DNA of 64,000 nucleotides from Leuctra nigra (Eukaryota; Arthropoda; Insecta; Plecoptera; Leuctridae), in NCBI GenBank assembly GCA_934045905.1, contig OW203767.1, positions 12,093,073-12,157,072 on the forward strand, read 5' to 3'. Below, one piece after another: positions 4,726-64,000 of this stretch. The first letter of the stretch is position 1. Each line of letters opens with the position of its first letter. The notes below the pieces were generated by a model. It was given only the letters and a program-made list of their open reading frames with translations, was not told the origin of the DNA and ran no database searches. A program made the translations under genes and the position numbers.

Positions 4726-4763
4726 TTTCAGGACGAAACGTTGCGAAACACTTTGCAAAGACT

Positions 4764-4800
4764 TCTGAGATGCGACTGCAAGTTCACTTGGTATTTATTA
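4764..4800 (-). promoter_or_regulatory. Candidate core promoter of first Osiris gene
   Basis: On the minus strand TAATAAATAC (4800-4791) lies about 28 bp upstream of TCAGA (4768-4764), an insect initiator-like motif. The predicted ATG follows at 4725. The TATA match is imperfect, so this is tentative. Confidence 0.35.
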
Positions 4801-14415: not shown

Positions 14416-16789
14416 CTAATCGCTATCGCTGGAGGCTCCAGCACGGAGGCCCATGGCTGCGGCGAAGAGGGCGAAGAAGAAGCCCGCCATCCCCGTGGAG
14501 CCGACGATGAGGAGCAGGCCGGCGATCAGGACGGGGATCAACGTGAAGAACTTGAGCTTGTAGGCGATGAGGAGCGTCGCCATGTGCTTGAAGATGAACT
14601 CCGTCGCCGTCCGCAAGACGCCTGACTTCCGGCGGCGTCCTGAAGAAGGGCGAGCTATAACATTTATCATTCTTGATATTATATTCGTGCTAGAATATCT
14701 TTCAACATCAACGTAGCCTCTCCAGTGAATGCAATTTGATAAATGATTTAAGAATATCATATCCTGTGAAAGTATTTAAGTCTTCACTATGACAAGATTC
14801 TAATTTCAGAAGTTCAGGGGTGGAAACTCGTAATATTGAGTGGTCTTTTCGGGGTGAAATATTACTTTAAATGTGGAGGGGTGGAGATAAATGATAATGT
14901 ATTTTTAAGAATATGATAATGATAGTCTTTATATCATAAAATACAATGAGTGGAAATCTAAATTGTATAAAAATAAATGAAATACTTTGCAGTATGTGGC
15001 CAGATGATTGAAAAACTTTGCTAAGTATTGTCTATAGTAAAGGGTCAGCAGAGCAAAGTCGTAAATTAAAAATTGAAATAGGTACTATACAAACAGATGC
15101 ATATCAACATTAGAAGAGAAGTGTTAAAACGATGTACCATAGAAGATTAAGAGATTTGATGATATTAAATCATGTGCGGGTCGCGTAAATGCGTCTTATT
15201 GAGTATGATTTGAATGACTTCTTGTTGGTTCACGAGGTGTGAGATAAAATCTGATGTGCGGTCGCAAAGTACATTGATTGAGCAATCATCATTTCATTGC
15301 GGTCGATTGATTGCGTATGTAGTGTGCAAATTGCACTGCAATCAAGTGGTTGAGAGTGCAGTTTCAGACCAGTGCATTAGAAAACAAACATGTGTTGGAA
15401 GTCAATCTTTCGATAAAGAGATGCAATTGAAATCTGTGTTAGACATGCTTTGAAAGAAAAATTCAATTACTCTTTTTAATGCTTTCAAATGTGTGATATT
15501 CTAAATCAACTATAGAATGAGAACTGTCAAACGTTGATTCCAAACTTAAACGTTTTGGATTCCCATTTACAACAAAAAAGAATTAGCGTAAAAATGATTG
15601 ATATTCCAAAAATAGATCCTAAATAATGTATGACTAACAAAAATACAAGAAAATTTGAATTTGACCAAACTGTATAAATCGATTGAGATTCGATGCTCAC
15701 ATTTTGTAATATTTTCTCATCCGTATTTAAATCAATTTATCCACACACATCAGGCTGTATGAGTGATTTATTGAGACATGACACAGACATTATATCTACC
15801 GTTTTGATTAATTGGCATTGCTGTCTTAATTGAATTTCCCGTCAAACGGTTTTGGGAACGAAATGTTTTACTACGGTACTCTTACGGCACTTTCTCTGTC
15901 TGTTTTTCTATTCTGTGTGTTGCTTGCACTGCCCACACACCAATCGATCTGAAATTGTGCACACATACTAATTCCATGCCAGCGGACTATAGTATAGTTT
16001 TGTTTTAGCAAACCCTCTGATTGGTTGAAAAGTGAATGAATATGAACTATTTGTCCTATCACGTTTAAAGTTTGCATGGTGGGACCTACACTTTGTCAAC
16101 TTTTACGCATTTTTAGCAAAATCGGCAAAAAGATTCAAGAGTTTAAAAAGGAAACTTGACAAATATTTAAAACTAAGCTAGGCATTTTTAACTTAAAAAT
16201 ACCTAGCTTAGTTTTAAATATTTGTAAAGTTTCCTTTCATTGGGAAAGCATACATCGCACCTTGATCACATAAAAATCAGTAGAGTTATCTTTATAGCTA
16301 TCTCCAATGTTTACAGATCAGCAACTTGCACACAAAATTTTAATTTGCATTTAATAAAAATACTCTCTTATATAAACTCGTTACACATATCGTTTTTCAA
16401 AACTAAAATATTAGTTGAAAAAAAACATTTGAAATGAGAATGTTATTTTATGACAAGATCTTACCACTATTATCATACCACGCTGCTTCCTGATGGTGGT
16501 ATGGCTCGTGAAACTCCTCCGGTTCCTCCTGTACGTGATAGACCGCTTTCTTCGTTCCCGCGTAATATTTGTCCTCATCTTCATCCTCATTGAGAGGGAT
16601 GTAGCCCCCTTTCCTCCAGTCATCATTGTCGAAGTAATGCAACCCCCGATCACTTTCAGACTTCTCAGCATCCACTTCCCTACCCTCTTCAGGCTCCTCG
16701 GTCGTTCCAAATGAAATCAGTTCACACTGAACACGAATCACCACTAAAAGCAATAATAAATTTACAAATAAATAAACTTGAAGCCCCAT
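14416..16789 (-). CDS. Osiris-like secreted acidic protein, two exons
   Basis: Exons 16789-16465 and 14654-14416 on the minus strand give 187 residues. Exon 1 begins MGLQVYLFVNLLLLLVVI, a signal peptide, followed by about 85 strongly acidic residues (EEPEEGREVD, NEDEDEDKYY, EEPEEFHEPYHH). The two-cysteine pattern of canonical Osiris N-termini is missing. The exon ends AATAGTG|GTAAGAT in phase 1. Exon 2 follows TTATAG and completes an Ala codon, then RPSSGRRRKSG and a hydrophobic domain (FFTLIPVLIAGLLLIVG, then FFFALFAAAMGLRAG). Intron position and phase match the three clear Osiris genes in this window, and the hydrophobic domain has the Osiris look, so I call it Osiris-like, not a sure DUF1676 member. 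It stops at ASSDSD, short of the usual tail; the GC-rich frame beyond suggests a frameshift or sequencing error. The exon pairing is inferred. Confidence 0.65.
14655..15879. other. Intronic stretch of Osiris-like gene
   Basis: AT-rich. A 79-codon plus-strand frame at 15214-15453 has no motif support. Nothing else is seen. Confidence 0.4.
15880..16240 (+). repeat. Copy of dispersed GAGCGAGC/ACGCGTT element (internal part)
   Basis: Contains CAATCGATCTGAAATTGTGC, 'CTGATTGGTTGAAAAGTGAA' and 'GTTTGCATGGTGGGACC', in the same order as copies at 44.0, 50.8 and 60.6 kb. Clear termini are not seen. It lies in an intron and ends in a near-perfect palindrome. Confidence 0.5.
16148..16236. repeat. Near-perfect 89-bp palindrome
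   Basis: Arms 16148-16191 and 16193-16236 (44 bp each) are inverted copies with two mismatches and a one-base centre. The left arm begins AAGGAAACTTGACAAATATT and the right arm ends AAATATTTGTAAAGTTTCCTT when read on. It is the strongest hairpin in the window. Confidence 0.9.
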
Positions 16790-26400: not shown

Positions 26401-27139
26401 ACCTCATTGCACGATTCATATATATTTTAGAAATGTACTATAATTAATAATATTTTTTTCTCAACATTTTAATTTGGTTAATTCTTGAGATGCAACCACA
26501 TCAACATTCCACATCTTGGCAAAAGTCCCTAAATTTAAAAAGATACATTTCTCAAGGGTGTACATCAAGAAAACGTGATTTGTGCCAAATAACAATCTGT
26601 CACAATCATCGAAATAGTTTAGATCATCAAACTATTTGAGTCATTTAGATTTTTTTGTCTTATGCTATTGGAACTTAGATGAGTTAATTTTCACTGTTCC
26701 TACCTTCTCCAATGCTCCTCTCCAGATCCTCCCCCGTGAACGACGGGAAGTTCAACTGCACTTTCCTGGAGCTGAAGAACTTGGCAACACGATCCATCAA
26801 CAAGCTATCCAGCTGTCCTTCCCTCTCCTCTCCCTTCGGCAGCGTCGCCTCGATCTCGCCCTCCGACATCGCGCGTCCCGACGCCGCCGCCGGACTCCTC
26901 ACCAGCGTCACCGACTCCATCACGGGGATCTCCGGCGCCCGCGACGCCCGGTCGAAGAACGTGATCGCCCTCATCTTAAGACACGACGATAATCCAGAGT
27001 CTTTCTTCGCGCAGTCGTCGTACAGACGCAAGAACACCTTGAGGCCCGAGCCGAGAGCGTCGTCGCTGTTCACATTGACGCGGACGTCTTGCGCCGAGAT
27101 GACGCCGACGACGGCACACAACAATACGTAACGAAACAT
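23447..27139 (-). CDS. Osiris family protein (DUF1676), two exons
   Basis: Exons 27139-26704 and 23736-23447 on the minus strand encode 241 residues. Exon 1: signal peptide MFRYVLLCAVVGVISA, a helix LKVFLRLYDDC, the second cysteine in SSCLKMRAITFFDRA (the Osiris C...CLK.kal..lDra pattern), ESVTLVRS and a segment ending LERSIGEG at GGAGAAG|GTAGGA, phase 1. Exon 2 follows TTTCTGTTCAG: GRGKKNKG, a Met-rich run MMGMMMMGMAMKM, a hydrophobic domain (LVPLAIGKLFLLAGKALIIS), a His-rich tail (KHDHHHVEHEHHDHG) and the end AHNMAYSAHAKQ. This is a canonical Osiris layout. Family members are membrane-associated secretory/endosomal proteins of cuticle-forming cells in Drosophila. The exons are strikingly GC-rich against AT-rich flanks. 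A TATA/initiator pair lies upstream. Osiris number not assigned. Confidence 0.93.
23825..24184. mobile_element. hAT-like MITE with 8-bp target duplication and poly-G tracts
   Basis: The perfect 8-bp direct repeat CCCTATAA flanks the element (23817-23824 and 24185-24192). The left end is CAAGGACGTATCCAGG; the right end, inverted, reads CCATGGCATCGCCGAGG. Both are decayed relatives of the CAGGGGCGGATCCAGG-type hAT terminus. G-runs lie just inside each end (23851-23868 and 24131-24159). No transposase. It sits in the intron of the third Osiris gene. Confidence 0.8.
24335..24480 (+). mobile_element. MITE fragment with perfect X-box palindrome
   Basis: Begins GGGCCGGTTTTTCCTGTTAA and contains GTTGCCATGGCAAC at 24410-24423, then 'TAGTCCTAATCAATG', matching the 12.5-kb copy. 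The right terminus is not clear. Confidence 0.55.
24481..26024. other. Intronic stretch of third Osiris gene
   Basis: AT-rich intron sequence; no exon-like or repeat feature recognised. Confidence 0.4.
26025..26162. mobile_element. Small MITE (~138 bp) with TTCTAGAA termini
   Basis: The left end GTCCTGGGGCCCTATTCTAG and the right end, inverted, GTCCTGGAGGCCTATTCTAG pair over about 23 bp with few mismatches and continue towards AATTCC on both sides. No target duplication is certain. It abuts the SINE-like repeat to its right. Confidence 0.7.
26163..26395 (+). mobile_element. SINE-like repeat with tRNA B-box
   Basis: GGTTCGAATCC at 26173-26183 matches the RNA polymerase III B box. The body then carries 'GAGAAGGTTACCTACTAAC', a CCTCTTTCCCACCGGCCA block, a TCATC-rich stretch and 'GCCATTAGCCTAGTTGCAG'. 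Parts recur at 21.6, 37.9, 40.4 and 52.2 kb, which supports a dispersed tRNA-derived SINE family. The A box is not visible. Confidence 0.65.
26396..26703. other. Intronic stretch next to the 5' splice site of third Osiris gene
   Basis: AT-rich, with no feature recognised apart from the donor GTAGGA at 26703-26698 on the minus strand. Confidence 0.4.
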
Positions 27140-27171
27140 TGCGACAATGACACACTGATGTGCGAAATAGA

Positions 27172-27209
27172 GACTGATCCTTACTAGTTCATGGTCATCT
27201 GTTTTTATA
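27172..27209 (-). promoter_or_regulatory. TATA box and initiator of third Osiris gene
   Basis: On the minus strand TATAAAAA (27209-27202) lies about 34 bp upstream of the A in ATCAGTC (27178-27172), an excellent arthropod initiator. The predicted ATG follows 36 nt later at 27139. No other ATG lies between. Confidence 0.65.
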
Positions 27210-28170
27210 GTAACCTATGCGAAAAGGCAACTAAGAGGAGTGACCATAAGAAATCTTTACCCCCACCGCGCAGCTACGCTGCGGTACATCTTTAATTCAA
27301 GATAGATGGCCTTATTTCATACTCGTGTGACCCTATATGCTCTGTCTCTCTCGGCGATCTTAACCTTTCATTTTGACCTCTCCTCATTTTCTAAAAGGAT
27401 CTTCCTCCAATGATGAGCGAATATCAACATTAGTTTTGATTCTGCCGCATAATTATACAGCGTTGGCGTTAAATGAACTGATTAACCAAAGTGGTGGGCG
27501 GAATTTCTTGACCATTTATGGTAAGTTTTTATAACATCAAAAGGAATGTGAACAAATTTCATAATTACTTTTGTAATTAATCATCATGATGTCAAAGAAT
27601 CATATAGCATATGATTATTCTGTTAAAATTCAATGGGTTGAAACGGTTCGTGAGTTTCGGGCGAATGCGTGATACAGTAGCAAATAGCTCATTGTCTATT
27701 ACGTGCCTTGATAATAATTCCGTACAAATCATTCAATCTCACGATTTTCACCAAATATCCCGTACTAAAATGCATAGAGACACTTTGTTAGCGGTAGGAT
27801 TTATCGGCTGAATCCATGGCAACGCCAATGAAACGCAGCCATCTAGACCGCTCAAGTCCACTTTAGGCTAAAGTGAACTTTATCTAGTGGAGCGGTCGCT
27901 CCACACAGCCAAGTCGTACCGTACACTCACAGTCACTCTACATATACCGTAAATGCCTATATAAACTGAGGAGCAGACCAACTACTTTTACTGTAAGCAA
28001 CAACATAGCATTTTCAGCCTACTGGATCTCAACTATGAAAAATCTCTCATTGTTGTGAAATGTCTTAATTTTGAGCTATGGCCCACCTGACAACATATAC
28101 ATCACGCGACAACAACCAGTAATGCCGTTTACGACCTAGAGGGCAGTGAAAATCGTGAAATTACACCGCT
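27210..28170. other. Intergenic stretch upstream of third Osiris gene
   Basis: No gene recognised. A short inverted repeat around 27845-27900 (CCACTTTAGGCTAAAGTG, then CTAGTGGAGCGGTC pairing with GACCGCTCAAG) may be a small MITE. Confidence 0.35.
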
Positions 28171-28239: not shown

Positions 28240-29960
28240 CTGTCACCGCCACAGCCTAAACGGCTGAACCGATCAACCTGAAATTTTTACCACATATGCA
28301 CTTTTGGCGTCTGATGATACCTTGCCTCTTGTGATTTTTTGTGCCGCCATTTTTAAACCGGAAGTGACGTCATATATGAAAAACGGCTGGACCGATTAGA
28401 ACGAAATTAGCGCCATTCGATTTAGATGGTCATCTATATGAAGTATGTTACTTAAAAATATAATTTTCTTATATTCTAAACCGGAAGTGACGTCATAAAT
28501 TTGCAATATTTAGCTTATTTCATCAAATTATACTTTAAATACACATATAATTATCTTACATTGTAACATAGACAATACAATTTATAAATTCAAGGTTGCA
28601 GTGTTCTCGACCGCCATTTCTGAAACCGGAAGTGACGTCATATATCTAAAACGCCTGTACCGATTGCAACTGAACTAGCTCCTGCGTATTCATTCTACTA
28701 TTTATTTGAAAAATCAATTGGGAAAAATGAATAAACAAATTAACGGTACCGGAAATGGCGGCAGGAACCACTAAATGAAACCGGAAGTGACGTCATATAT
28801 TACAAACGGCATGACCGATTTTACGGAAATATAGGGATTATGAATTCAGATGGTCGTTCGTGAAGTATCAACTAGATAAAACTAGATTGTATTCTTATTA
28901 CCTATACCGGAAATGACGTCATAAATATGATGATTGATGAATTACGTCATAAATATGTTAAATGACATTAAATTCACCACTTTATACTTTTAAATAGATA
29001 TTAGTAAACGTACATTGTGAATAATTATAAATTCAAGGTTGCAGTGTTCTCGGCCGCCATTTTTAAAACCGGAAGTGACGTCATGTATCAAAAACGGCTG
29101 TACTGATTGCAACCAAATTTGGGAAATGTGTAGGTCTAATAATTATGAATTAAAGACGACATTATTTTCGGCCGCCATTGTTAAAACCGGAAGCGACGTC
29201 ATATATCGAAAACGGCTGTACCGATTGGAACTAAATTGTGTAAATATGTAGGACATAAGAATATTGATTATGAATTTAAGACGACATTATTTTCGGCCGC
29301 CATTGTTAAAACCGGAAGTGACGTCATATATCGAAAACGGATGAACCAATTGCAACCAAATTTTAGAAATGTGTAGGACTAATAATTATGAATTAAAGAC
29401 GACATTATTTTCGGCCGCCATTGTTAAAACCGGAAGTGACGTCATTTATCGAAAACGTCTGTACCGATTGCAACCAAATTATGCAATTATGTAGGACTTA
29501 TTATCATGAATTCAAGACGACATTATTTTCCACCGCCATTTCAAAACCGGAAGTGACGTCATATATAGAAAACGGCTGTACCAATTGCAACCAAATTTTG
29601 GAAATGTGTAGGACTAATAATTATGAATTAAAGACGACATTATTTTCGGCCGCTATTGTTAAAACATGAATTAACGTCATATATCGAAAACGGCTGTACC
29701 GATTGCAACCAAATTTTGGAAATATGTAGGACTAATAATTATGAATTCAAGAAGACATTATTTTCGGCCGCCATTTCAAAACCGGAAGTGACGTTATATA
29801 TCGAAAACGGCTAAACCGATTGTTATCAATTTATGTAATTTTGTAGGACTTCTAATTATGATTTCAAGAAGACATTATTTTCGGCCCCTATTTCAAAACC
29901 GGAAGTGACGTCAAATATCGAAAACGGCTGGACCGATTGTAACGAAACCTAAGCTATTTT
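28240..29960 (+). repeat. Tandem array with ETS-CRE composite core (about 13 units)
   Basis: Units settle into a 117-118-bp period after about 29.3 kb and are more irregular (110-155 bp) before. The core ACCGGAAGTGACGTCA is perfect nine times: CCGG at 28358, 28481, 28626, 28781, 29069, 29312, 29430, 29547 and 29899. It is degenerate near 28917, 29187, 29664 and 29782. Each later unit also has 'CGGCCGCCATTGTTAAAA' before the core and 'AACGGCTGTACCGATTGCAA' after it. The opening part (GAACCGATCAACCTGAAAT) resembles the dispersed element of 50.8 and 60.6 kb. The period is not always a multiple of three, so this is not a protein repeat. Confidence 0.9.
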
Positions 29961-45165: not shown

Positions 45166-45942
45166 TCTTGTACATCGCATGCACATTAATCTCTGAAACA
45201 CATGTTATTTGTTTGTGTAATTCATATGATTGAGAACGTGAAGCATTATAAAATCAGTTCGAAATTATAACATGCTCGCATCATTTTGACCCATATCATT
45301 TTTACCAAAATTACGGTTAATTCCATGCTTTTAGAATTCAATTTTAATTAATTAAAATAAATATTGTGTTTTGTTACATTTTTCTCAAATTCTCAAATTG
45401 AATATACTATCTAAGTTTCGTTTATACCACACTTAAAAATAATAAAAAAATATTTTATGTAATAAACCATATCTTTACAACCAATCATTAGGATGAAAAA
45501 CGTTTGCAACTTTCGATTTTCATGAGTTTTGAAGAATTCCAATCGCCGTTGCATTAAATGATTCCACCAATGAAAGTACCTACATTCAATGAATGCAAAA
45601 TCACTGCCATTTCAACAATGCGATCGTCAAAACAAGTTCCAAAGACAAATTAGTTTAATATAAAGTCATGAATAACCATCAGACGCGACTTTGTCCTAGT
45701 TATTATCCTAGCCTAAATATTATCTTATACAGAAATTAGGACCACATCTTGTAATTACAGTCATGGTTGACGTCGTATATTATACAACATCGGGAAACTG
45801 GTGCGTGACAAAAGATGCCAAGCGTTCCAAGTACCACATTTTTGGATGTACAAATATGATTTTATCACATATCAACAAATATTCTAATGCTGCATAAGCT
45901 ACGCTCCAAAAAGCCATAACTCCTACTTGTAACTTAGATCCA
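45166..45942. other. Intergenic 5' flank of fourth Osiris gene
   Basis: AT-rich; nothing recognised before the core promoter. Confidence 0.35.
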
Positions 45943-45977
45943 ATAAAAACTTGGAGCACGATCGTATCAGCATCAGT
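45943..45977 (+). promoter_or_regulatory. Candidate TATA box and initiator of fourth Osiris gene
   Basis: ATAAAAAC at 45943-45950 lies 32 bp before the A of TCAGT (45973-45977). The ATG follows 49 nt later at 46024 with a good context (CGAAAAATGG). Confidence 0.45.
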
Positions 45978-46023
45978 CTTAGTTTGGCATTGTCCAAGAA
46001 GTACCAAAACAGTTTTCCGAAAA

Positions 46024-48018
46024 ATGGCGATGGGACGTATGGTTTTCGTAGCTCTGTGCATAGCAGCTGCATACGGACAAGAGGCTGTCAGTGAGAAAGA
46101 ATCTGGTGCTTCTTCCGGACTGAAGATGATCATGAAAGTGATCGACCAGTGTGAAACTACTCCAGACGCGTTCAAGTGTATCAAGGGTAAAGCGTTGAGG
46201 GTTGTCGATCGGGCTCTGCATCTGGATGTGATTCCGTTGATGGACGGCGTCACGTTGACGAAGACTCCGGGCAATGATCGACGAGAACACGCCAGGGCGT
46301 TGAAGGACGAAGAAGTTGAGGATGTGAACAAAGTTGATGGGTTGTTGTTTGATCGTGTGATGAGGTTGATCGATACACATGCGATCAAGATTGATATGCC
46401 CAAGATGGCCGATGTCAAGGGATTCAACATTGAGAGGATCTTCGGTGAAGGTAAGATTTTTTTTAAGCTTAATAAACGTCAATTGTATGATTGAGAGAGT
46501 ATCTTATTTTTGTTTGTGTGTGGTCTGGCGAGAGGTCATCATTCTCCGATCGAACTGAAATATTGTTCAGAATTTCAATTTAAAGGAAGATAAATTTTAA
46601 AATTTAAATAAGCGATAAGCGTTGATAAGCCAGCATGTGGGTAAAATGTCGTACATCTAGAGACTCTGGTGGCATTGATCGAAAAACTTTACTAATGGCA
46701 TTCGTCGTTCTGTGTCTCTTTGTAATAATAAAACAAATATTGAATTCATTAAATATTTTTAATTGTATAACTATTCGAGAAAATAAGGAACACGACTGAC
46801 CTCTGGTGACTTCTTTGATACTAGAGATAGGGGCGATCAGGGAGGATATCAGGGGCACATTTATATTAATAAATTATATTAAATTTGCCTTAGTTAATTG
46901 TTATGGCTGAAAAAGTAAACTTGTAACTAAATTTGTAACTAAATTTTCCTTTTCCACTGCCCTATGGAAACACGAACTTAAAAATAAAAAAGTGCATCTA
47001 AAGAGTGGCTCCATCACTTATCGCTTATTTGCGCGAATTTCTTTATTTTATCCTTATTTAAAACTATTTCTCTCAACTTACGTCTGTGTTTTTTGTCTAG
47101 CCCGCGGGACCAAGCACTTCCTGAAGAAGATGATGGGCCCGATCATAATGGGCCTGATGATGAAGGGAGGCCTCTTCGTCCTGGCCTACAAGGCCGTCGC
47201 CCTCCTCGCCGGCAAGGCCCTGATGGTCGCCAACGTCGCCCTCGTGCTCGCCGCCGTCATCGGCCTCAAGAAGCTGTTCACGCCCGCCGAGAAGGTAGAG
47301 TTGTCGTCGAGGTTAGACGAGATAGTGAGGGCGATCAAGTTTCTTGCTGAAGATAGATTTTGATGGTAGGAATTGACAAAGTTTCAATTCTGACTCTCGT
47401 TTTCTACTTATGTGAAGAAAGAATAAGGAATACAAATTAGGTATTCGTTTACAAACTGATCAAGGGATTCAAACATACTTTTGAAACTTCGTACGAACCA
47501 ACAGTATACAAGTATATAAAATAATCTCTAGAGACATACCATTTTTATCATCTGTTAATGATTGTATTGATGTTAATTTTTACAACAATTTGTATTTTAA
47601 TAATAGAAGGATTCGGTAATTTTAACCTTTGAGAATACTTGTGGCAGAGCCCAGAAATAATTGGGAGCTGTACCAAAGAAAATTATAGTTGCTTTTTTGT
47701 AGTTTTTTCTAAGTGTTTGACTTGACGCAGGTAACCTACGAGATCGTGAAAACCCCGCAGATCTCCCACGGCTACTCACACACCAGCAGCATCTCCGCGT
47801 TGCCTAGCAACGTGTGGGAGAGCAGCGCGACCTACGACCAGGGCGCTCAACAAGGCGGTGGCAGCGGTGGACACTACCGCAGTCTCGAGGCGGCCGCAGA
47901 GGAGCGCTCTTCGTATGCCGCTCAAGCGCTCGCCTACGCCGCTCACATCCCCCAGCACGTCCAGCACGTCGTGGTGCCCCGTCCGTCGGGGACCACACAC
48001 GTCCTCGTCGGCGCTTAG
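46024..48018 (+). CDS. Osiris family protein (DUF1676), three exons
   Basis: Exons 46024-46450, 47101-47294 and 47731-48018 give 302 residues. Exon 1: signal peptide MAMGRMVFVALCIAAAYG, a helix LKMIMKVIDQC, the second cysteine in DAFKCIKGKALRVVDRAL, DGVTLTKTPG, and an end NIERIFGEG at GGTGAAG|GTAAGA, phase 1. Exon 2 follows TTTTTTGTCTAG and completes an Ala codon: RGTKHFLKKMMG, then hydrophobic IIMGLMMKGGLFVLAYKAVA and LVLAAVIGLKKLF, ending PAEK at AAG|GTAGAG, phase 0. Exon 3 follows TTGACGCAG: VTYEIVKTPQISHGYSHTSS, a Gly/Ser-rich part, SSYAAQALAYAAHIP and the end THVLVGA. The first intron has the same position and phase as in the other Osiris-type genes here. Exons 2-3 are GC-rich. The last coding segment recurs three times in the 3' flank. 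It is the only Osiris gene here on the plus strand. Osiris number not assigned. Confidence 0.92.
46451..47100. other. Intron 1 of fourth Osiris gene
   Basis: GTAAGA...TTTTGTCTAG intron, AT-rich; nothing else seen. Confidence 0.8.
47295..47730. other. Intron 2 of fourth Osiris gene
   Basis: GTAGAG...TTGACGCAG intron, AT-rich. If it were retained, the frame would read on for 23 codons to a stop at 47361-47363 and lose the tail. Confidence 0.75.
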
Positions 48019-51898: not shown

Positions 51899-54800
51899 GT
51901 AAGTGTTTACATCACAACTAAAATATACGCATTTATATCATAATTTCCAAGCACAATTTTACAAAACATCGTACATTTAGGATTTTTTCATGTTCATTTC
52001 ATTATGCTACGGCATATGAACCAAATAAATTTCCACAAAGTTATGTTTGTTATATTATTTTCTTATACTAAATTCAGTGCTGTCTGTAAAATCTAGCTAG
52101 ATGTTGACTTCTAAAAGGAGTTGGGTTAATTTGTTTATAAACATATTGCAATAACTTCGCTTTTGGAGAGAGGTCCCCCCGCTGTTCTTTGATTACTGAT
52201 GAATGTCCCTCAGTTGAAAGGTAAATGTTGGGACGGTTCCTACTATAGGCCTTCGCCTCCTTCCTAACGTACATTTTATAACAATTCTTGTGCATTATCT
52301 CCCTACCATAGGTACTCATAATAATTTATCCGCCACCATTCGCCTATAGGTACAGAACAGTGCGACATTAAACATAATTATAAATAACACAGGATGTTTC
52401 CCTACAGCGAAAATTTTACTTTGTGTATAATTGTTGCATTAATATTCTTCTTTGAATGAAAATCGAACGATAAAGTATCATAATTTCATCATATGTTAGT
52501 AGACACTTTATTAGCAAGGATTATCAGATATTATCAGCTCATTCTTTATATTATTGATGTCCAAGATACGGCGAGAATGTAAGTTCAATTATGACAATTT
52601 CCAGGAATAGAAGATTTAAGCGGTCATGATGCAGATACGATCGAAGAACAAGTCGAGCGGTACGTACTTGAGTGTGTAAGTGAATGTAGGCGTCAAGTCA
52701 TCAATCTCCATACATAATAGGTTATGATTGTCGAAATCATCTAATACTTTAAGTTCCCAATTGGATATTTTGGCAACACAACAATGTAAAAATTAAATTT
52801 ACTTCCTTAAGTTATAGAGTTGTCATATTTGAGTAGGGGATGTATATAGGGGTTGGTTTTCTAAGAGCGAATATGTCTACATTTAGCTACCATATCAATC
52901 TTCTGTCAATATGTGCTGTTGTACTGTATACTCTGCAAATTTCATGCAAGATTTTTTGTTTACGTTGACAGAAATTTCAAATTCAATTTCTCTACTTGTA
53001 ACTTTTTACGAACTAACGCTTATTTTCCCAGGTATCTTTATGTATTGAGTAGGACCCCATATAATTATAATTGACTCGAATTACATTTTGAATCAATTTT
53101 AAACGTTCGTTTATTTTTTATTTGCATTATTGAAGTGTGTACCTGACCGCAAATATTTAATATAATTATTATATCCTAATTGTTTTTATTAAAAGAGAAA
53201 AAAAACATAAAAAAATGCTTTAAAAAAAGCATTTAAAGCATCTTTGCCATTATTTTAAAATGATAAATAGTAGGTAGCATTAATGCTTTCATAAACATTG
53301 AATCATGCGTAATTTCAATACATTTAGAATATAAGGGAAACATTTATTCCCAGAAAGCACATTCTTAAACAATACGTTAAAGACATTGCCATAATAAAAT
53401 ACATTTCCTACAAAACTGCCAAAGGAAAAATTTGAAGTATCACATTTTACACTATTTTACATTCTTTTGTGTGTACTAACACTTAATCTAATCATTAATT
53501 GTAAAATGCAATATGATAATTTATTGCGAGTTTCTACCACAGTGTTATACTGGTCTACCAATATGTAAAGTCGTAAAGTCAAATTCAATTCAGCTTGTAT
53601 ATAGGTATATTATGACAGAATCAAACAAATTCAAGTCGATAATAATTGAAGGGGCCAGTGCAAAACCAGTCAAGTCACTAAATTCCGTTTTTTTCCCTGC
53701 TATATTATGTTGGTAAATCTGTGTGCTATACGTGCAAGAATAATTACGTCAACAAATTATCACTTATGTTATGAGGCTTTAAAGTATATTCAAGAGCAGA
53801 AAGCAGTTGAGTCTTACTTGTTAGTCTCACACTTAAATTTTTTCTAATCCGAGAGGCCGTCAAAACAAAAAGCAAGATGGCGTCCTAGTTCTATTAATAA
53901 TATTTATAATTAAAATAATAGTTTGGAAGCAGTAGAGATTTATTTAAACACCCATTACCCACCCATCATTTGCTCCGATTATTTATAATTTTGATTAAAT
54001 TCAAATGCTGGTATCCATCGTAACTAAAAAAAATCACGGATATCTGATTGGTCATTACATCCCGCGGTCAGAATAATGACGGTAAAATGGTTGGAGCTCG
54101 GATTACCGTCAATATTTGTTGAATAAAGAATTAATTTTTATTTATGGTGTGGATGGTTGGTTCTTATAATCAAACCCTACAACCCCATATGTTCGAAATA
54201 TGCGTTTACCTATTTGTTTTTTCGTCGGGAATATCAAGTATAAAAAATTTAGAATTTTGCAAGCAGTTTATGTGACCCGTGGGTGTACGTTATTTACGTC
54301 TCACAACACGAGCGAGGACGATCTTTTCATTCTTATTGTTAATGTTTGAAGGAACCAGCCAGCAGGATTGAAATACCAGACGATTGATGGCGGCGTCGAC
54401 TTGTGTGGGCCGAAGTACGAATTCAAGATGGCTTCTCTGTTGCTTCTACGTGGCGTCAATCACACGGATGGATTCTTCTTGGGGGCCAACGTAGCCGGCG
54501 CAGGCGCGTTTGACGACATTGTCTTCAAATACAAACCTAGTGGTGAGCAAGAGTACAGAACTTGCTTTATACAGTGTAAACATAAGCAAAATAGTAGCAA
54601 AATGATATCACTCAAATATCTTGCCGATGTAAAAGGGAAATTTAGTGTTTATAAATATTTCAAATCTTCACTTAAGGTGGAAAGTAATGTAAGAGTTCCA
54701 AATGATCAGAAAAGTGTCTTGTTTCATAACAGTTTTGACAAGTGTGATCTTGTTATCTACACGAACGCCATCTTCGACAGTAAATTCCCGGCCGATAACC

Positions 54801-57800
54801 CAGAAATCAGTTCATCAGGTCTGGAGAGATCGAAGATATTAGCTACAGGAAAAAACAACGAGACACAACCGGCGATGATGAAGGAGTATACATTGAATGA
54901 AATGAAGGAGGAAGTGAAAAAACATATGAAAAAGGGAAATAATTGCAAAGAGTTGAAAGAGTTTTATGACGCAATCGAAAGTGATCATAAGTTAAAGGAT
55001 TTCTTCATGGGACTGCAATGGTTCACTCAGCAAGCGAAGCAGGACGAACTGGATGCTCTGATTCAAGATGAAATCAAGATAGCCTTGGAATCAAATGAGG
55101 ACGAGACTTCGAAGATTTTTAACATCTTCATGAAGGAGATTGAGATTTGGTGGGAGAGGAGAGGAGAATCAGAAGTGTTGACTGAGACTGCGCAGTTGTG
55201 GAGAAACGTCATTGTCTCGCGTCTTGACTTGATGAATGATTCAAAGATGAAGGAGATGGAAGCGTTGAACATCAGTTTCACTGACCAAGAGATCGATTCC
55301 TTCAACCAATCTCTCTCCACCAGTCTTGTGATTAATGTGACGTCAACAAATGTCAAGTTGACCAACCTGAAAATAAGACAGGTGTTAGAGAAACATCACT
55401 CGAAGCGATTCATATTCATGGACCAAGAATCTCTGTTGAAATGGCAACCCGAGGTCCTGCGCGCGTGGCAGAGTGTGTGGTGTGACGTGCTGGTGATAGA
55501 ATGCAGCACTGATGCCATGTCACTTGCTGATGAGCTGAGCAAAGCCTCGCCAGGCAAGAAGCTGATCCTCATCTCAAAGTCTGCATTGCCAGGTGACCGG
55601 CAACTCCAGGACATCTTCACCTGGAGTCAGCTGGAGGTGAAGTCACAGCAGAGCCTCATGGAGAAGAAAGTGGATTTCCAGGGGTATGATGTAAGCTTCG
55701 GGTCGGTGGTGGGTGAACAATGCTCGAATGCGCTGACTGGAGATGATGTGTTTAGATTACTTTCTCCCGACACCAAGCTTACATTGGGAAAGAAGATCCC
55801 TGAAAATATCTCGTATTACATCCCTCGTAGCTTAGAGAGAATATCTTACGTCTCAAAAGAAATCTTCAGTCATACCAAAGGTAAGGAAGATTATTTTATA
55901 ATCAGTAACGTTGAAGAGCAGGACGTCACTAGCGTGGAAGATTCGTACAGTATACGGCTGAAGAAGTGGGTTGAAAACCAAGACGAAGTTCTGCATCACA
56001 TCTACCGGACTGACGGCTCGTTCACTGCAGATAAGTTTTCAAGATTCTGTAATAAGATTCCCAGTAAGAATGTGCATTGGCTGTCAATGGACCAGGATAA
56101 TGATGTGCATTGGGAGCAATCATTCAACAACATAGATATCATCAAAAAGATAGTTGACTGTAGTAAGAAGAGAATAATCGAAGCTGAAGACCTGAAAGAT
56201 TTGACAGAGCGAGTTGTTCTCTTAATTGCTGAACCTGGGATGGGTAAAACAACATACCTCAATAACGTGGCCCAGGCAGCTAAGATAGAGAACAATTCAC
56301 TGTGGGCCGTGAGAGTGGATTTAAATGACATTACAAAACATCTGGAAGAGCACACTGAACTGTATTTTACGAACCATGAAAATGTCGCAGATTTCTTAAG
56401 AGACGTTGTGGGAAGCTGTGAGCTTGATAAAGAAATTCTCCGATCAAGATTGACTCGAACTGGAAACGTAAATATATATTTAGACGGATGTGATGAGATT
56501 AGTCCATATTACAATGATAAAGTCACCAATATGATCAAGAGCATAAAGGAACTGAAAGTGGGACAGATTTGGCTGACCTCTAGAAATGTTATGCGACATC
56601 ACTTGGAAAGCGAGCTTGCTACAATGTGTTACTCCATGAAGCCATTTACTGACGAAGATCAAATCAGCTTTCTTGTCAAGTTGTGGAACGCGAAATATTC
56701 AATACAGATCGACGATGCATCAAGAACATTTTCTCAGAAACTTCTGAATAAAGTTTCCGAATCGTTCAGTGACAGAGACAGAGATTTCACGGGAATTCCC
56801 CTGCAGTGCATGATGCTGGGTGAGGTGTTTGCTGAAGATGTCAAAACAGGGGATCTTAATCTTCCAAACAGGCTGGATTTACTGCTGTTGTTTGAAAAAT
56901 TCATATCTGAGAAAATTAACATTCTACATTCAGACAAAGATCAAAAAGATGCCTCAAATCCAAGAGAAATTGCTAAAAGAAAAAAAGATCAAAAAATAAT
57001 TATGGAGAATCACTCCGATGCAGCAATATTATTGCTTCTTTCAGACGAAGAAATAGAGTTGTTAAAAGAAAACAAAAGCAAACTATCATCCAAATTTGAG
57101 GAGAGTTTTTCAGAAGGCGAGCAAGCATGGACTGGATTGGTTGATGGAATGACAGACGGCAAACCAAGTTTCATCCATCGATGTTTCGCTGAGTACTTCC
57201 TGGCTTGGTGGCTGTCGAAGAACATATCGTCAAGCACTGATTTCATCGCACAGAACCTGTTTGAACCTCGCTTTGTAATCGTCCGCCAGTTCTTCGACCG
57301 ACTGCTTGCGAGAGATTGCCCGTTGCACAACGCAGTGTTGAGCGCTGACAGAGAAGGAGTTAAAGCTCTGCTGACATCTGGCGCTGACGTGAACCAGCTT
57401 GACACGGGCGGCAGATCAGCGCTTCATATGGCTGCATCATACCCCGATAATGACCCTCAAATTGACTTCAATCCTGACGATGATCAATACATCGACGATT
57501 ACCCTGAAGATGAACAATACGATCAATACCCTGACGACGACCGTTACGATGACAATCCTGACGATGACCGTTACGATGACAGTCCTGACGACGACCGTTT
57601 CGATGACTGTTACGACCAATACCCTGACGACGACCGCTACGATGACAGTCCTGACGACGACCGTTACGATGACTGTTACGACCAATACCCTGACGACGAC
57701 CGCTACGATGACAGTCCTAACGACGACCGTTACGATGACTGTTACGACCAATACCCTGACGACGACCGCTACGATGACAGTCCTGACGATGACCGTTACG

Positions 57801-59929
57801 ATGACAGTCCTGACGACGACCGTTACGATGACTGTTCCGATCAATACCCTGACGACGACCGCTACGATGACAGTCTTGACGACGACCGTTACGACCAATA
57901 CCCTGACGACGACCGCTACGATGACAGTCCTGACGACGACCGTTACGATGACTGTTACGACCAATACCCTGACGACGACCGCTACGATGACAGTCTTGAC
58001 GACGACCGTTACGATGACTGTTACGACCAATACCCTGACGACGACCGCTACGATGACAGTCCTGACGACGACCGTTACGATGACTGTTACGACCAATACC
58101 CTGACGACGACCGTTACGATGACTGTTACGATCAATACCCTGACGACGACCGTAACGACCAATACTCTGACGACGACCATTACGAAGACCATAACGACGA
58201 CCGTAACGACCAATACCCTGACGACGACGATTACGACGACCATTACGACGACCGTAACGACCAATACCCTGACGATGACGATTACGACGACCATTACGAC
58301 GACCGTAACGACCAATACCCTGACGACGACGATTACGACGACCATTACGACGACCGTAACGACCAATACCCTGACGACGACGATTACGACGACCATTACG
58401 ACTACCGTAACGACCAATACCCTGACGACGACGATTACGACGACCATTACGACGACCATCATGACGACCGTAACGACCAATACCCTGACAACGACGATTA
58501 CCTCGACCATTACGACGACCGTAACGACCAATACCCTGATGACGACGCTTACGACGACCATTACGACGACCATTACGACGACCATTACGACGACCGTAAC
58601 GACCAATACCCTGACGACGACGATTACGACGACCGTTACGATGACTGTAACGACCAATACTCTGACGACGACCATTACGACGACCGTAACGACCAATACC
58701 CTGACGACAACCATAACAATTCTCATGGTTTTGCCGGCATCATGCAATTGCTTCTAAACCATGGCGCTGACAAGAGCTTGACAGATAGTATACTGCAGGG
58801 AACTCCTCTAAGATATGCAGACAAGACTCGGTCGTGGACAAATGTGGAACATCTACTGAAGAAAGGAGCAAACACAGATGGTTTAGTGGAGATTAGGGAA
58901 ATTATAAACGATGTGAATGAAATAAATTCTTGCAGTGAGGATGATTATTACACTGAGGAGGATTCTGAAACGGATGAAGATTCTGAAACTGTGGAAGATT
59001 GTAACACTAATCCTAGAATACGTAGAGCTCATAAAAGTTTTTACTTAATTGTGAAAAATGGATGCTTTCATATACTGAAGTTTGCTGTGGATAAATGTAG
59101 ATTAGAAGTAAGCACAGACCTGATAACATGCACCAAGTATGGCATTGTGAAACGCAGTGTTCTTTATGCCGCTGCTGAGAGTGGTAGTGAGGAATCTGTG
59201 AAGTTCTTGCTAGCAAGAGGTGCCAACATCATGCAACACGACGAGTTCAAGCGTCTGCCTATACATGCGGCAGCTAGAGCAGGTCATCGCAACATAATCC
59301 CACTTCTGAGCACGGGCTGTTCCTCTTTGTCCTTTACTCCCATGCATTATGCGGCCATGGAAGTTCATCTCGGAGTCGGCACTGTTGAGTACTTGGTAGA
59401 AACAGGGGCGGATATCAACGCTAAGACAAAATACGATGAGACGCCTTTGATATTTGCCGTGAGACACAAACATTTTGAAGTTGCCAAGTGTCTAATAGAG
59501 GCTGGAGCTGATGTTAATGCAAATGACTGTCAGAACTTCTCTCCCCTTCATTATGCAGCTAGATCAGGGCAACTCGAAACTGTTATGTGTTTGATCGAGG
59601 CAGGAGCTGAAATCGAAGCTAAGACGAAGTACGATGAGACGTCTTTGCTTCTTGCTGTGAAGGACAAAAATGCAGAAGTCGCAAAGTGTCTGATTGATGC
59701 TGGATCTGATGTAAATGTCAAGGGCCGGGCGAATTATACTCCCCTGCATTATGCTGCCATGAGAGGGCGACACGACACTGCCATGTGGTTGGTACAGGCA
59801 GGGGCTGAACTTAACTCTCAGGCAGACAGAGAAGGCGTGACGGCTTTGCTTCTTGCTGTGAAGTACAAACATGGAGATGTTGCCAAATTGTTGATCGAGG
59901 CCGGAGCTTACGAACACTGCGCCGAGTGA
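51892..59929 (+). CDS. Nuclease-like / NACHT NTPase / ankyrin-repeat protein
   Basis: One large exon (54359-59929) plus two inferred small 5' exons (51892-51898, 52605-52675) give 1,882 residues; numbering follows this model. Residues ~36-130 resemble a PD-(D/E)xK nuclease: Glu47, GAFDDIVF (Asp78, Asp79) and FIQCKHK (Gln98, Lys100). A helical linker follows. NACHT: Walker A EPGMGKTT (651-658), Walker B YLDGCDE (733-739), sensor LTSR (765-768). FIHRCFAEYF (964-973) is the usual post-NACHT motif. Ankyrin repeats start near 1013 (ADREGVKALLTSGADVN) and resume from ~1481 to the end (about eight recognisable repeats). In between, 1055-1480 is an Asp/Tyr/Arg low-complexity block encoded by a minisatellite. 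STAND proteins of this plan oligomerise on ligand sensing; the nuclease-NACHT-sensor order parallels bacterial Avs proteins with Cap4 nuclease domains. An immune role here is inference. The frame is intact, so the gene looks functional. Without the small exons the first ATG is 54428. Confidence 0.85.
52160..52375 (+). mobile_element. SINE-like repeat copy in NACHT-gene intron 1
   Basis: Carries 'CCTCAGTTGAAAGGTAAATG', 'GCCTTCGCCTCCTTCCTAAC' and 'GCCACCATTCGCCTATAGGT', colinear with other family members, followed by 'CAGTGCGACATTAAAC'. Confidence 0.5.
52605..52675 (+). other. Inferred second coding exon of the NACHT gene
   Basis: 71 nt after AATTTCCAG and before a perfect GTAAGT donor at 52676. 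In the phase set by exon 1 it reads GIEDLSGHDADTIEEQVERY then VLEC, with no stop, and ends in phase 0. That fits the large exon beginning CCA after AACCAG at 54358. Earlier donors at 52660 and 52664 are also frame-compatible with nearby acceptors. Confidence 0.5.
52676..54358. other. Intron 2 of the NACHT gene (inferred)
   Basis: AT-rich 1.7-kb stretch. A short palindromic run (AAAAAATGCTTTAAAAAAAGCATTTAAAGC) lies near 53209-53239. No further exon is recognised. The polypyrimidine run TTTTCATTCTTATTG lies just before the acceptor. Confidence 0.45.
57443..58720 (+). repeat. Coding minisatellite, Asp-rich, inside an ankyrin repeat
   Basis: Two sub-arrays. The 5' part (to about 58150) is built on a 66-bp/22-residue unit of the form YDQYPDDDRYDDSPDDDRYD. 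The 3' part (about 58190-58700) uses a 51-bp/17-residue unit of the form NDQYPDDDDYDDHYDDR. All length changes are multiples of three. It separates ALHMAASY (first helix of an ankyrin repeat) from GFAGIMQLLLNHGAD (second helix and turn). The two other long open frames here (Thr-rich plus, Val-rich minus) are by-products. Confidence 0.95.
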
Positions 59930-60043: not shown

Positions 60044-60550
60044 AAATGCATAGTCGTGATAAAGTCGATAATAGATATGTGATGGTAATATACATGCCAT
60101 ATTTTGTAGGATTGACATTTATATTCTAAAGTTTATTTTAAATGTTGGCATTAAGTTTCATTATAAGCTTCTTGTTCGCACTTTAAGTTGTAAACGATTT
60201 TTTATTTCTAGCTTTAAAAGGTTCAATTATAATTTTTATGTACACCCAACAAATCATGAAACGATATTTCAAGAAAACGGATTGGCTGGTGGTCAGGTTC
60301 TTGGACAAATAATCCTTGTCACTATCATTCAATGAAATCAGAGCTACCTACGTATACTAGAGTTAGATGATGAGTTAGCATAGACTTCATAGGATGATTG
60401 ATGCCTTCACGTTTTTTCCAGCCAATCCATTTCTATCAAATACCGTGTTATCATTTTGTTGAGTGTCCTACCACTTATATCTTAAATAGCTATGTTTGTT
60501 TACAATTTAACATAATGTAGTATAATTATTCATTTCAATAGTATTGTTGA
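60044..60550. other. Intergenic stretch
   Basis: AT-rich; part of it (60240-60350, 'GATTGGCTGGTGGTC') is weakly like the dispersed element. No gene. Confidence 0.35.
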
Positions 60551-61696
60551 TTGAGCGAGCGAAGCGAGCGACTCCATTTGGCTCTTTTAGCACGGACCTC
60601 TGTTTTTTTTTTTGTTTTTTTTTTTGTTTTTGTTTTTGTATGCTAAAGGAAGCAATAGAAGTCGCACCGTTTCACCGATCGACCTGAAATTTTGCACACA
60701 TGTAAAGACAACCTTCTCTGTTTGCAGACCCAATTTTTTTTTGAAATCCATCCATTGGTTCATTGTTAAAATAAGTATCTCCTGATAGCCTAAAAAATGA
60801 AAATGGTCTTCGAGAAATGTGATCAAACTCATATTTAGCATGGTCAGTAAGACCAACAATGTCACTTATTTTACCAATTTTCAGCCGAATCTGTCAAGAA
60901 AGTATGCACTTATTGACATTTTTAATAGCTGTCAGAAATGAAACATTGAAAATTAATGTCTTTCCAATGCAACTGAATCTGATTTGCTTTAGGTACAAGA
61001 GTGTTTTGATGGTATGTACACTTTTTTAGTGAAAAGCAGATATTTTTATGTGTATTGAGTTGATCAAATTTGAATAATTCAATTTGGATCATAGTTTCCA
61101 ACAAATCATTTCGAGTTTTTAAGGACCTTGATTGTCTTTTCGTCAATTCGTAGTTCTGATGGCCGTGCCTCCCGTGTTTCTACTTGGCTGATTTTGCATC
61201 CAGGAGGGATTAGAAACATAAGCTCAAATTTCAATAATATCATTGAGTGGCGTTTGTTCTCTTCTAGCGTTCACACGTCATTCCAAATCTCTCCTGCATT
61301 GTGCTTCTTTTCGTTGATAATTTTGGCAATTTGGTGTACTTTGTGAAGGTATTAGTAAAATTGAATCGCTTTTAAAGCATAGATATTAGGTATCTACAGT
61401 TTTTGTCCAGGGGATTGATTATTTCAAATTATTTTCTTCTTGGAAACGTTGGATTTATTCCGTTTCTGAGCTTCTGTCTAGCCTGACATTTCCTTGAAGG
61501 TTAGGTATATCTCGGATTACACATTAATGGTGGTCATACAATGACACATTGTTTTATATTGATTCAGTGGATCGTAGTTTGCTTTCAGTTTGACTTAAAA
61601 TAATGTTTTCTGTGTGTTAACGAACGCATATTCGGTTAATGTTTGCGCACGTGTCGTGCTCGCTCATTCAACGCGTTACACAGAGCGTTTTCCTAG
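60551..61696 (+). repeat. Full-length copy of dispersed GAGCGAGC/ACGCGTT element
   Basis: Begins TTGAGCGAGCGAAGCGAGCG and ends CAACGCGTTACACAGAGCG then TTTTCCTAG. GAGCGAGC and GCTCGCTC form subterminal inverted repeats. A T-rich run lies at about 60603-60640, then CACCGATCGACCTGAAATTT. At 1.15 kb it is longer than the 436-bp copy at 50.8 kb. No transposase or Rep/helicase frame; the 92-codon minus frame at 60587-60865 shows no domain. Its first ~530 bp are repeated at 63470. Confidence 0.8.
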
Positions 61697-62579: not shown

Positions 62580-63276
62580 GGTTCTAGGGTATTTTACCGA
62601 CGGACAGTTTACCGACGGACACATTACCGAAAAACAGGGGGGGACACTTTACCGACGGACAGATTACCGAAATCTACCCGGACACTTTACCGATTTTTTT
62701 TTTTACATTTTCCACAAATATTTTTTCCAAAATCAAGACAGAATTTTATAAAATTTTCACAAATATTTTTTCAAAATTTTTGACAAAATTTTATAAAATT
62801 TCTACAAATATTTTTTCCAAAATGTTGAAAAAATTTTATAAAATTACCACAAATATTTTTCCAAAGTTTTGACAAAATTTACACAATTTTTTTCTTCGAA
62901 ATATTGTCAAAGTTTTATACAATTTTAACATTTTTTTTAAGATTTAAAAAAAAACTAAAAGAAAGCTAAACACGAAACACGAAATTTTCGTAACACCATA
63001 AAACGCGAAATTTCATTATCTTATGATGATAAATTTTGGAAAAAATATTTGAAAGTTTGAAAAAAATATTCGTAGAAATTTTATAAAATTATATAAAATT
63101 TTGTAAAAATTTTGAAAAAACTATTTGTGGAAAATGTAAAAAAAAAATCGGTAAAGTGTCTGGGTAAATTTCGGTAATCTGTCCGTCGGTAAAGTGTCCC
63201 CCCCTGTTTTTCGGTAATGTGTCCGTCGGTAAACTGTCCGTCGGTAAAGTGTCCGTCGGTAAACTGTCCGATTACC
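62580..63276. mobile_element. Fold-back transposon with TTACCGACGGACA subrepeats
   Basis: Both ends carry several copies of a TTTACCGACGGACA-type 14-mer in opposite orientation, plus matching 'CATTACCGAAAAACAGGGGG' and its inverse. Further in, AT-rich arms (ACATTTTCCACAAATATTTT and its inverse) continue the pairing. CCACAATC at 62572-62579 and 63277-63284 is a candidate 8-bp target duplication. No transposase frame. Confidence 0.8.
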
Positions 63277-63469
63277 CCACAATCTATTCCCCTGTGAAAT
63301 GATGTTAAGATGTATTTTAATACGTATCTTGCTGTGGACAAGTCATTGATAACAAAAAGGTTGGAATCGTCCGCAGAATTTCGGATTGATTCTGTTTTAA
63401 TTTTTCTGAATACCTATGCAATTGGAAAAATAATACGGAAATACATTGTATTCAAATGAACACAATTTA

Positions 63470-64000
63470 TTGAGCGAGCGAAGCGAGCGACTCCATTTGG
63501 CTCTTTTAGCACGGACCTCTGTTTTTTTTTTTTTTTTTTTTTTTGTTTTTGTTTTTGTATGCTAAAGGAAGCAATAGAAGTCGCACCGTTTCACCGATCG
63601 ACCTGAAATTTTGCACACATGTAAAGACAACCTTCTCTGTTTGCAGACCCAATTTTTTTTTGAAATCCATCCATTGGTTCATTGTTAAAATAAGTATCTC
63701 CTGATAGCCTAAAAAATGAAAATGGTCTTCGAGAAATGTGATCAAACTCATATTTAGCATGGTCAGTAAGACCAACAATGTCACTTATTTTACCAATTTT
63801 CAGCCGAATCTGTCAAGAAAGTATGCACTTATTGACATTTTTAATAGCTGTCAGAAATGAAACATTGAAAATTAATGTCTTTCCAATGCAACTGAATCTG
63901 ATTTGCTTTAGGTACAAGAGTGTTTTGATGGTATGTACACTTTTTTAGTGAAAAGCAGATATTTTTATGTGTATTGAGTTGATCAAATTTGAATAATTCA
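63470..64000 (+). repeat. Second copy of the 60.6-kb element, cut by the window end
   Basis: Identical to 60551-61080 as far as I can read, apart from the length and interruptions of the poly-T run. It continues past the window. Near-identity suggests a recent insertion, a segmental duplication or an assembly duplication. Confidence 0.85.

Follow-up and report, generated by a model that had tools for sequence, protein, structure and literature searches.

A nuclease-like domain joined to NACHT and ankyrin repeats in a very large gene family of Leuctra nigra

Does an insect encode, in its own chromosomes, proteins built like the Avs proteins of bacteria? The question is raised by a gene of the plecopteran Leuctra nigra within a stretch of 64,000 nucleotides (GCA_934045905.1, contig OW203767.1, positions 12,093,073 to 12,157,072 of the forward strand), the whole of which we call the window. 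In Avs, the bacterial antiphage STAND proteins, an effector, a STAND part and a repeat sensor follow one another, and the window gene has the same order: a nuclease-like N-terminus, a NACHT nucleoside triphosphatase (NTPase) and ankyrin repeats. An earlier note on this DNA had proposed an analogous sensor-effector in insect innate immunity. From the domain order, the predicted fold and the residues kept, we infer the same. The parts of the gene, with position 54350 as the first base of residue 1, are as follows.

54350..54351, forward strand: probable 3' splice site (AG), from a pyrimidine-rich tract and an AG at the same point in paralogues
54352..59929, forward strand: large coding exon of about 1859 codons and a stop, from the open frame and paralogue comparison
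54392..54784, forward strand: PD-(D/E)xK nuclease-like core, residues 15-145, from model, structure matches and conservation
54419-54421, forward strand: putative catalytic E24, from conservation
54512-54517, forward strand: putative catalytic D55-D56, from model and conservation
54572-54574, forward strand: putative catalytic Q75, from model and conservation
54578-54580, forward strand: putative catalytic K77, from model and conservation
54785..55249, forward strand: helical part that extends the nuclease domain (residues 146-300), from structural alignments
55250..56149, forward strand: middle alpha/beta domain, residues 301-600, from alternating strands and helices in the model
56150..57304, forward strand: NACHT NTPase, including helical and winged-helix-like parts (residues 601-985)
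56231..56254, forward strand: Walker A EPGMGKTT, residues 628-635, from translation; G632 and K633 in 19/19 copies
56477..56497, forward strand: Walker B YLDGCDE, residues 710-716; D712 and D715 in 19/19 copies, E716 in 18/19
57170..57199, forward strand: FIHRCFAEYF motif, residues 941-950; H943 and E948 in 19/19 copies
57305..57487, forward strand: first ankyrin part, from Pfam, which matched ankyrin within 56000-57574
57493..58717, forward strand: Asp-rich in-frame minisatellite of about 400 codons, from tandem repeats with every reported period divisible by 3
58715..59926, forward strand: C-terminal ankyrin repeats, the putative sensor, from Pfam Ank families

The frame 54350..59929 (forward strand) is free of stops for 1859 codons and ends with a stop at 59927-59929. 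With this base composition, a run of such length would arise at random with a probability of about 8e-49, or 3e-38 if the repeat tract is left out, so chance cannot account for the open frame. The FDDIVF, FIQCKHK, EPGMGKTT, YLDGCDE, TSR and FIHRCFAEYF patterns and the ankyrin repeats, all reported earlier, were found together in its translation. The start formerly placed at 54359 did not hold, as paralogue comparison puts the start of the exon most likely at 54352. At the matching point, acceptor-like letters are present in paralogues (for example L014, TTTGTTTGCAG; L018, CTATTCAG; L025, TTTGTTTGCAG), and likeness to the 2 kb upstream of the window gene, detected in 3/18 paralogues, begins only at this edge. 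The large exon thus very probably begins at 54352, behind an acceptor positioned as in the paralogues. An upstream exon is expected because no start codon precedes the conserved helix; no conserved coding exon was found in the 2 kb before 18 paralogues. Reading by eye, we noted a candidate small exon at 52605-52659, with AG before it, GTACGT after it and a phase that fits a start at 54352.

We examined the fold of the N-terminus in predicted models. The core consists of a helix (residues 19-38), three strands (39-47, 56-63 and 70-77), a helix (100-114) and a strand (132-138), which together with the structure matches gives the alpha-beta-beta-beta-alpha-beta core of Cap4-like nucleases. D55 and D56 open the strand 56-63 and Q75 and K77 close the strand 70-77, so that the model contains the acidic and (D/E/Q)xK parts of the active site, placed here by strand position rather than by residue-by-residue superposition of coordinates. 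The structural alignments run well beyond the core, over residues 16-288 for Cap4, 16-292 for HerA-DUF4297 and 13-293 for LmuA, with residues 146-180 mostly of low confidence in the model. Taken together, the predicted structure gives the N-terminus, previously described as nuclease-like, a Cap4-type PD-(D/E)xK fold with moderate confidence.

Likeness of the N-terminus to nucleases in sequence was weak. Pfam Mrr_cat, a restriction endonuclease family, fell short of its 21-bit cut-off with scores of 18.0 to 20.4, the PADLOC Cap4 match of the window copy had an E-value of 0.0021, and the SAVED_PDDEXK profile matched 2/29 members (best 1.3e-4). A search of the Leuctra genome with PF14130 (Cap4_nuclease) at E <= 10 gave nothing, but neither did the same search of 14 control genomes, so that this negative carries no information. 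In the PDB, the single sequence matched ankyrin designs only, and profiles recovered neither Cap4 nor any NLR with a useful E-value (NLRC4, at E 0.17, was the best-placed NLR); PDB sequence searches therefore lend no backing to the link seen in structure.

Next, we asked whether the putative active site was kept. Among 105 proteins (the window protein and 104 homologues), D55, D56 and Q75 were present in all 105 and K77 in 100, and the helix Glu was E in 55 and Q in 1 of the 64 proteins with a letter at that position. In the 19 near copies from the same genome, E24, D55, D56 and K77 were found in 19/19 and Q75 in 18/19, and more divergent copies carried all five residues in 8/8 cases. Only six of the 29 D/E/K positions of the core were invariant in the 19 copies, including the four in question; position 79, two past K77, varied (7 K, 11 N, 1 Y). 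The residues earlier listed as Glu47, Asp78/79, Gln98 and Lys100 correspond to E24, D55/D56, Q75 and K77 and are largely kept across homologues and own-genome copies; the earlier numbers are 23 higher, a shift that would imply coding sequence upstream.

Pfam identified NACHT at residues 621-778 with an E-value of 4.4e-6 and a score of 27.1 bits, over the cut-off of 26.7, and this match with Walker A and Walker B places the protein among STAND NTPases of the NACHT clade. Some Foldseek alignments matched tandem AAA+ proteins over 640-690 columns, at 19-29 A root-mean-square deviation. These alignments pointed to a possible degenerate second NTPase at residues 301-600, but hhalign against the family's own NACHT gave only 2.3% and 0.7% probability.

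How many such genes does this genome of 536,196,549 bases hold? A search with residues 1-497 gave 109 matches, merged to 84 places, and a divergent second query found 129. Between them the two queries mark at least 125 places where the nuclease region, the middle region or both are present. Some of these places are partial and some contain stops (11 in the place at C6:25580356), so the count exceeds that of intact genes. All 102 places marked by Pfam NACHT lie above its cut-off. In 90 of the 102, a nuclease or middle place is found no more than 4 kb upstream on the same strand, and three of the remaining 12 that were fetched (L044, L045 and L047) all contained the nuclease domain, bringing the total to at least 93/102. 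L042, one of the other nine, has a frame of 610 residues. A set of six fetched NACHT places had the nuclease domain in 6/6. The frame was open from nuclease to NACHT in 18/20 near copies, which are the top-ranking matches of the residues 1-497 search and not a random sample; of the other two, L022 is truncated where its contig ends and L028 carries a stop. These data show a very large gene family within one genome, spread over many contigs. L045 also carries a second, degenerate nuclease-like copy behind the first in the same frame (hidden Markov model match at residues 211-269, E 9e-8).

We then compared nonsynonymous with synonymous divergence (dN/dS, by Nei-Gojobori) among 19 copies, using pairs with dS below 1.5 out of 171. 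Median dN/dS was 0.29 in the nuclease core (106/171 pairs), 0.42 in the extension, 0.40 in the middle domain, 0.31 in NACHT and 0.52 in the ankyrin C-terminus (95/171 pairs). Three close pairs gave 0.13, 0.32 and 0.34 for the nuclease and 0.37, 0.69 and 0.71 for the C-terminus. Purifying selection thus acts on the nuclease and NACHT parts, most strongly on the nuclease core, and the ankyrin part changes faster. In the pair L020/L021, nearly identical in the core but far apart at the C-terminus, the core dS of 0.08-0.19 stands against a C-terminal dS of 0.66 with 341 gap columns, suggesting that the sensor was exchanged between copies, although the alignment of different ankyrin repeats could also explain this dS. 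The proportion of synonymous differences was 0.61-0.66 at residues 61-240 and 0.29-0.52 elsewhere along the gene, an unevenness compatible with gene conversion.

Homologues were named from Periplaneta americana, Blattella germanica, Culex quinquefasciatus, Culex pipiens and the firefly Abscondita terminalis. The NACHT-ankyrin proteins of P. americana, B. germanica and Culex share the architecture and catalytic residues of the window gene and are annotated merely as 'uncharacterized', 'hypothetical' or 'NACHT domain-containing'. In a 52-row tree, made by a quick method and with some long branches, 27 own-genome copies fall into two fully supported sets (8 and 19), and the Periplaneta, Blattella and metagenome sets stand apart. 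One protein, P0099, joins the same nuclease type to NB-ARC (E 4.9e-9) where the others have NACHT. Titles and abstracts in the literature searched, which lay mostly outside subscription journals, described no fusion of a Cap4-type nuclease with NACHT in insects or other animals.

Prokaryotic or viral relatives were not confirmed among 299 and 149 pattern matches in genome and viral contigs, in a word-based search that is blind to distant relatives, and tblastn of a 132-residue nuclease piece against plasmids gave one match, at E 2; the nuclease domain may thus be of old vertical descent or have come from bacteria by transfer. A further contig scan found at least 5 bacterial loci aligning only within query residues 645-845, in the NACHT part; three of them (L001-L003, the ones whose open reading frames (ORFs) were read, out of L001-L005) have N-termini of another kind and were rejected as full relatives. 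In L003 (733-9131), the C-terminus of the bacterial NACHT protein resembles formylglycine-generating enzyme and a reverse transcriptase ORF lies nearby, an arrangement like that of diversity-generating retroelements.

We also compared the gene with known systems. Avs3 has a Cap4-type nuclease (PDB 8dgc) and a sensor of tetratricopeptide-like repeats. It is bacterial, whereas the window gene is insect nuclear, with a 536 Mb genome, a splice site and DUF1676 neighbours, and differs in its ankyrin repeats, an additional middle domain some 300 residues long, its very many copies and the lack of detectable overall sequence similarity. Cap4, the CBASS effector (PDB 7yib, 6vm6), senses cyclic nucleotides through SAVED where the window gene has NACHT and ankyrin. 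DUF4297-HerA, LmuA of Lamassu and HamA of Hachiman appear from structure matches to have the same nuclease fold, but DUF4297, LmuA and HamA are separate subunits under a partner ATPase or helicase, whereas the window gene encodes one STAND polypeptide. Animal NLRs (NLRP3, NOD2, NLRC4) start with CARD, PYD or a death domain and end in leucine-rich repeats, whereas the window protein starts with a nuclease-like domain and ends in ankyrin repeats; none of those three N-terminal domains and no leucine-rich repeat family was among its Pfam matches. By analogy, the protein would work like Avs and NLR proteins while belonging to neither class.

We consider it fairly probable that the window protein is a cytosolic STAND receptor, an Avs-like sensor-effector with a Cap4-like nuclease output. 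The C-terminal ankyrin sensor would keep the NACHT switch closed; binding of a ligand would open NACHT and allow ATP-driven oligomerization, and the oligomer would gather the N-terminal domains to cut nucleic acid, probably double-stranded DNA. Invader nucleic acid would be destroyed or the infected cell would die, as with bacterial Avs, CBASS-Cap4 and DUF4297-HerA. Nuclease activity and phage defence by DUF4297 require its PD-(D/E)xK residues (PMC11291478), and residues of this type are needed for defence by both DUF4297 and HamA, with phage and host DNA destroyed (PMC11291478, PMC12278908). Because of this destruction of DNA by DUF4297 and HamA, DNA destruction would be the likeliest output here.

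Several results weigh against this reading. The two models reached moderate mean predicted local distance difference test scores of 61.9 and 76.0, Foldseek with the short model found no match at E <= 0.001, and the first 250 residues of the window protein were unmatched by PF14130 at E <= 10. Ankyrin dN/dS exceeded 1 in only 5/95 usable pairs and comes from alignments spanning unequal repeat numbers, a family without immune function could also show expansion and purifying selection, and the middle domain has no role assigned. At the active site, K77 is replaced in five proteins (P0047, P0074, P0075, P0091, P0101), the helix Glu is Gly in 8/64, one near copy departs from Q75, and QxK has become QLI in L047 (539-937), which has lost the equivalent of K77 and therefore probably lacks catalysis. 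Some family members may, judged by such changes, be regulatory.

These losses of K77, the second, degenerate nuclease copy of L045 and the Gln, not Glu or Asp, at position 75 would also be expected if the N-terminus kept its fold and bound nucleic acid without cutting, in a nucleic-acid-gated NACHT scaffold that signals via partners. We regard this as unlikely: D55/D56 are invariant, K77 is retained in nearly all proteins while position 79 varies, and purifying selection peaks in the nuclease core. Slightly less likely still, the family could regulate symbionts, development or cell death rather than defend against pathogens; STAND proteins are known to serve apoptosis and other regulation, but lineage-specific expansion, faster-changing repeats and a nuclease-like N-terminus would together be the usual pattern of an immune repertoire. 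Spread by transposition or selfishly, rather than by selection for host function, would fit the high copy number over many contigs and the repeats close to the window copy (60547-61081 and 63466-64000 below), but is very improbable given upstream flanks alike in so few paralogues and only at the exon edge, near copies mostly open from nuclease to NACHT, dN/dS well under 1 and a splice acceptor in place.

If the nuclease-output receptor is the right account, the Cap4/Avs logic extends from bacteria to animals and cell-autonomous insect immunity becomes directly testable. The 102 NACHT places of this insect genome, most of which have a nuclease-like domain attached, would then form a repertoire with a built-in effector. 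We suggest tentatively, at somewhat less than even chances, that some insects hold an NLR-sized repertoire of intracellular receptors (more than 100 genes per genome), each with its own DNA-destroying effector, as an animal counterpart of Avs; turnover of repeats and their exchange among paralogues would diversify the sensors, and the repertoire would provide cell-autonomous defence in a group of lineages for which bona fide NLRs are believed to be missing.

The ankyrin region, with Pfam repeats down to E 5e-54, is interrupted by the minisatellite, which the earlier note did not mention. In a 19-member alignment this segment spans 411 residues in the window copy, whereas the 18 paralogues have 0-16. 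Its DNA is also open in one more forward and two reverse frames.

Within the window, neither Rfam at its gathering threshold nor tRNA scanning gave a match. Elsewhere in the window, DUF1676 was found in 5/7 ORFs tested, four of them above the Pfam cut-off:

4285-4794, reverse strand: DUF1676 exon, above cut-off
14419-14775, reverse strand: DUF1676 exon, below cut-off
26687-27214, reverse strand: DUF1676 exon, above cut-off
45898-46491, forward strand: DUF1676 exon, above cut-off
46911-47360, forward strand: DUF1676 exon, above cut-off

These neighbours support an insect chromosome over a symbiont. We take DUF1676 to be the Osiris family of insects, and the window seems to cover part of an Osiris cluster. 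A direct repeat of 535 bases (60547-61081 and 63466-64000, 99.6% identical), which starts near a gcgagcgaagcgagcg run, is probably a recent mobile element. Two segments, 62593-63248 and 2359-2751, match their own reverse complements (76% and 84%) in a foldback-like manner, and 29020-29947 is a tandem array with units of about 120 bases that are 85% alike.
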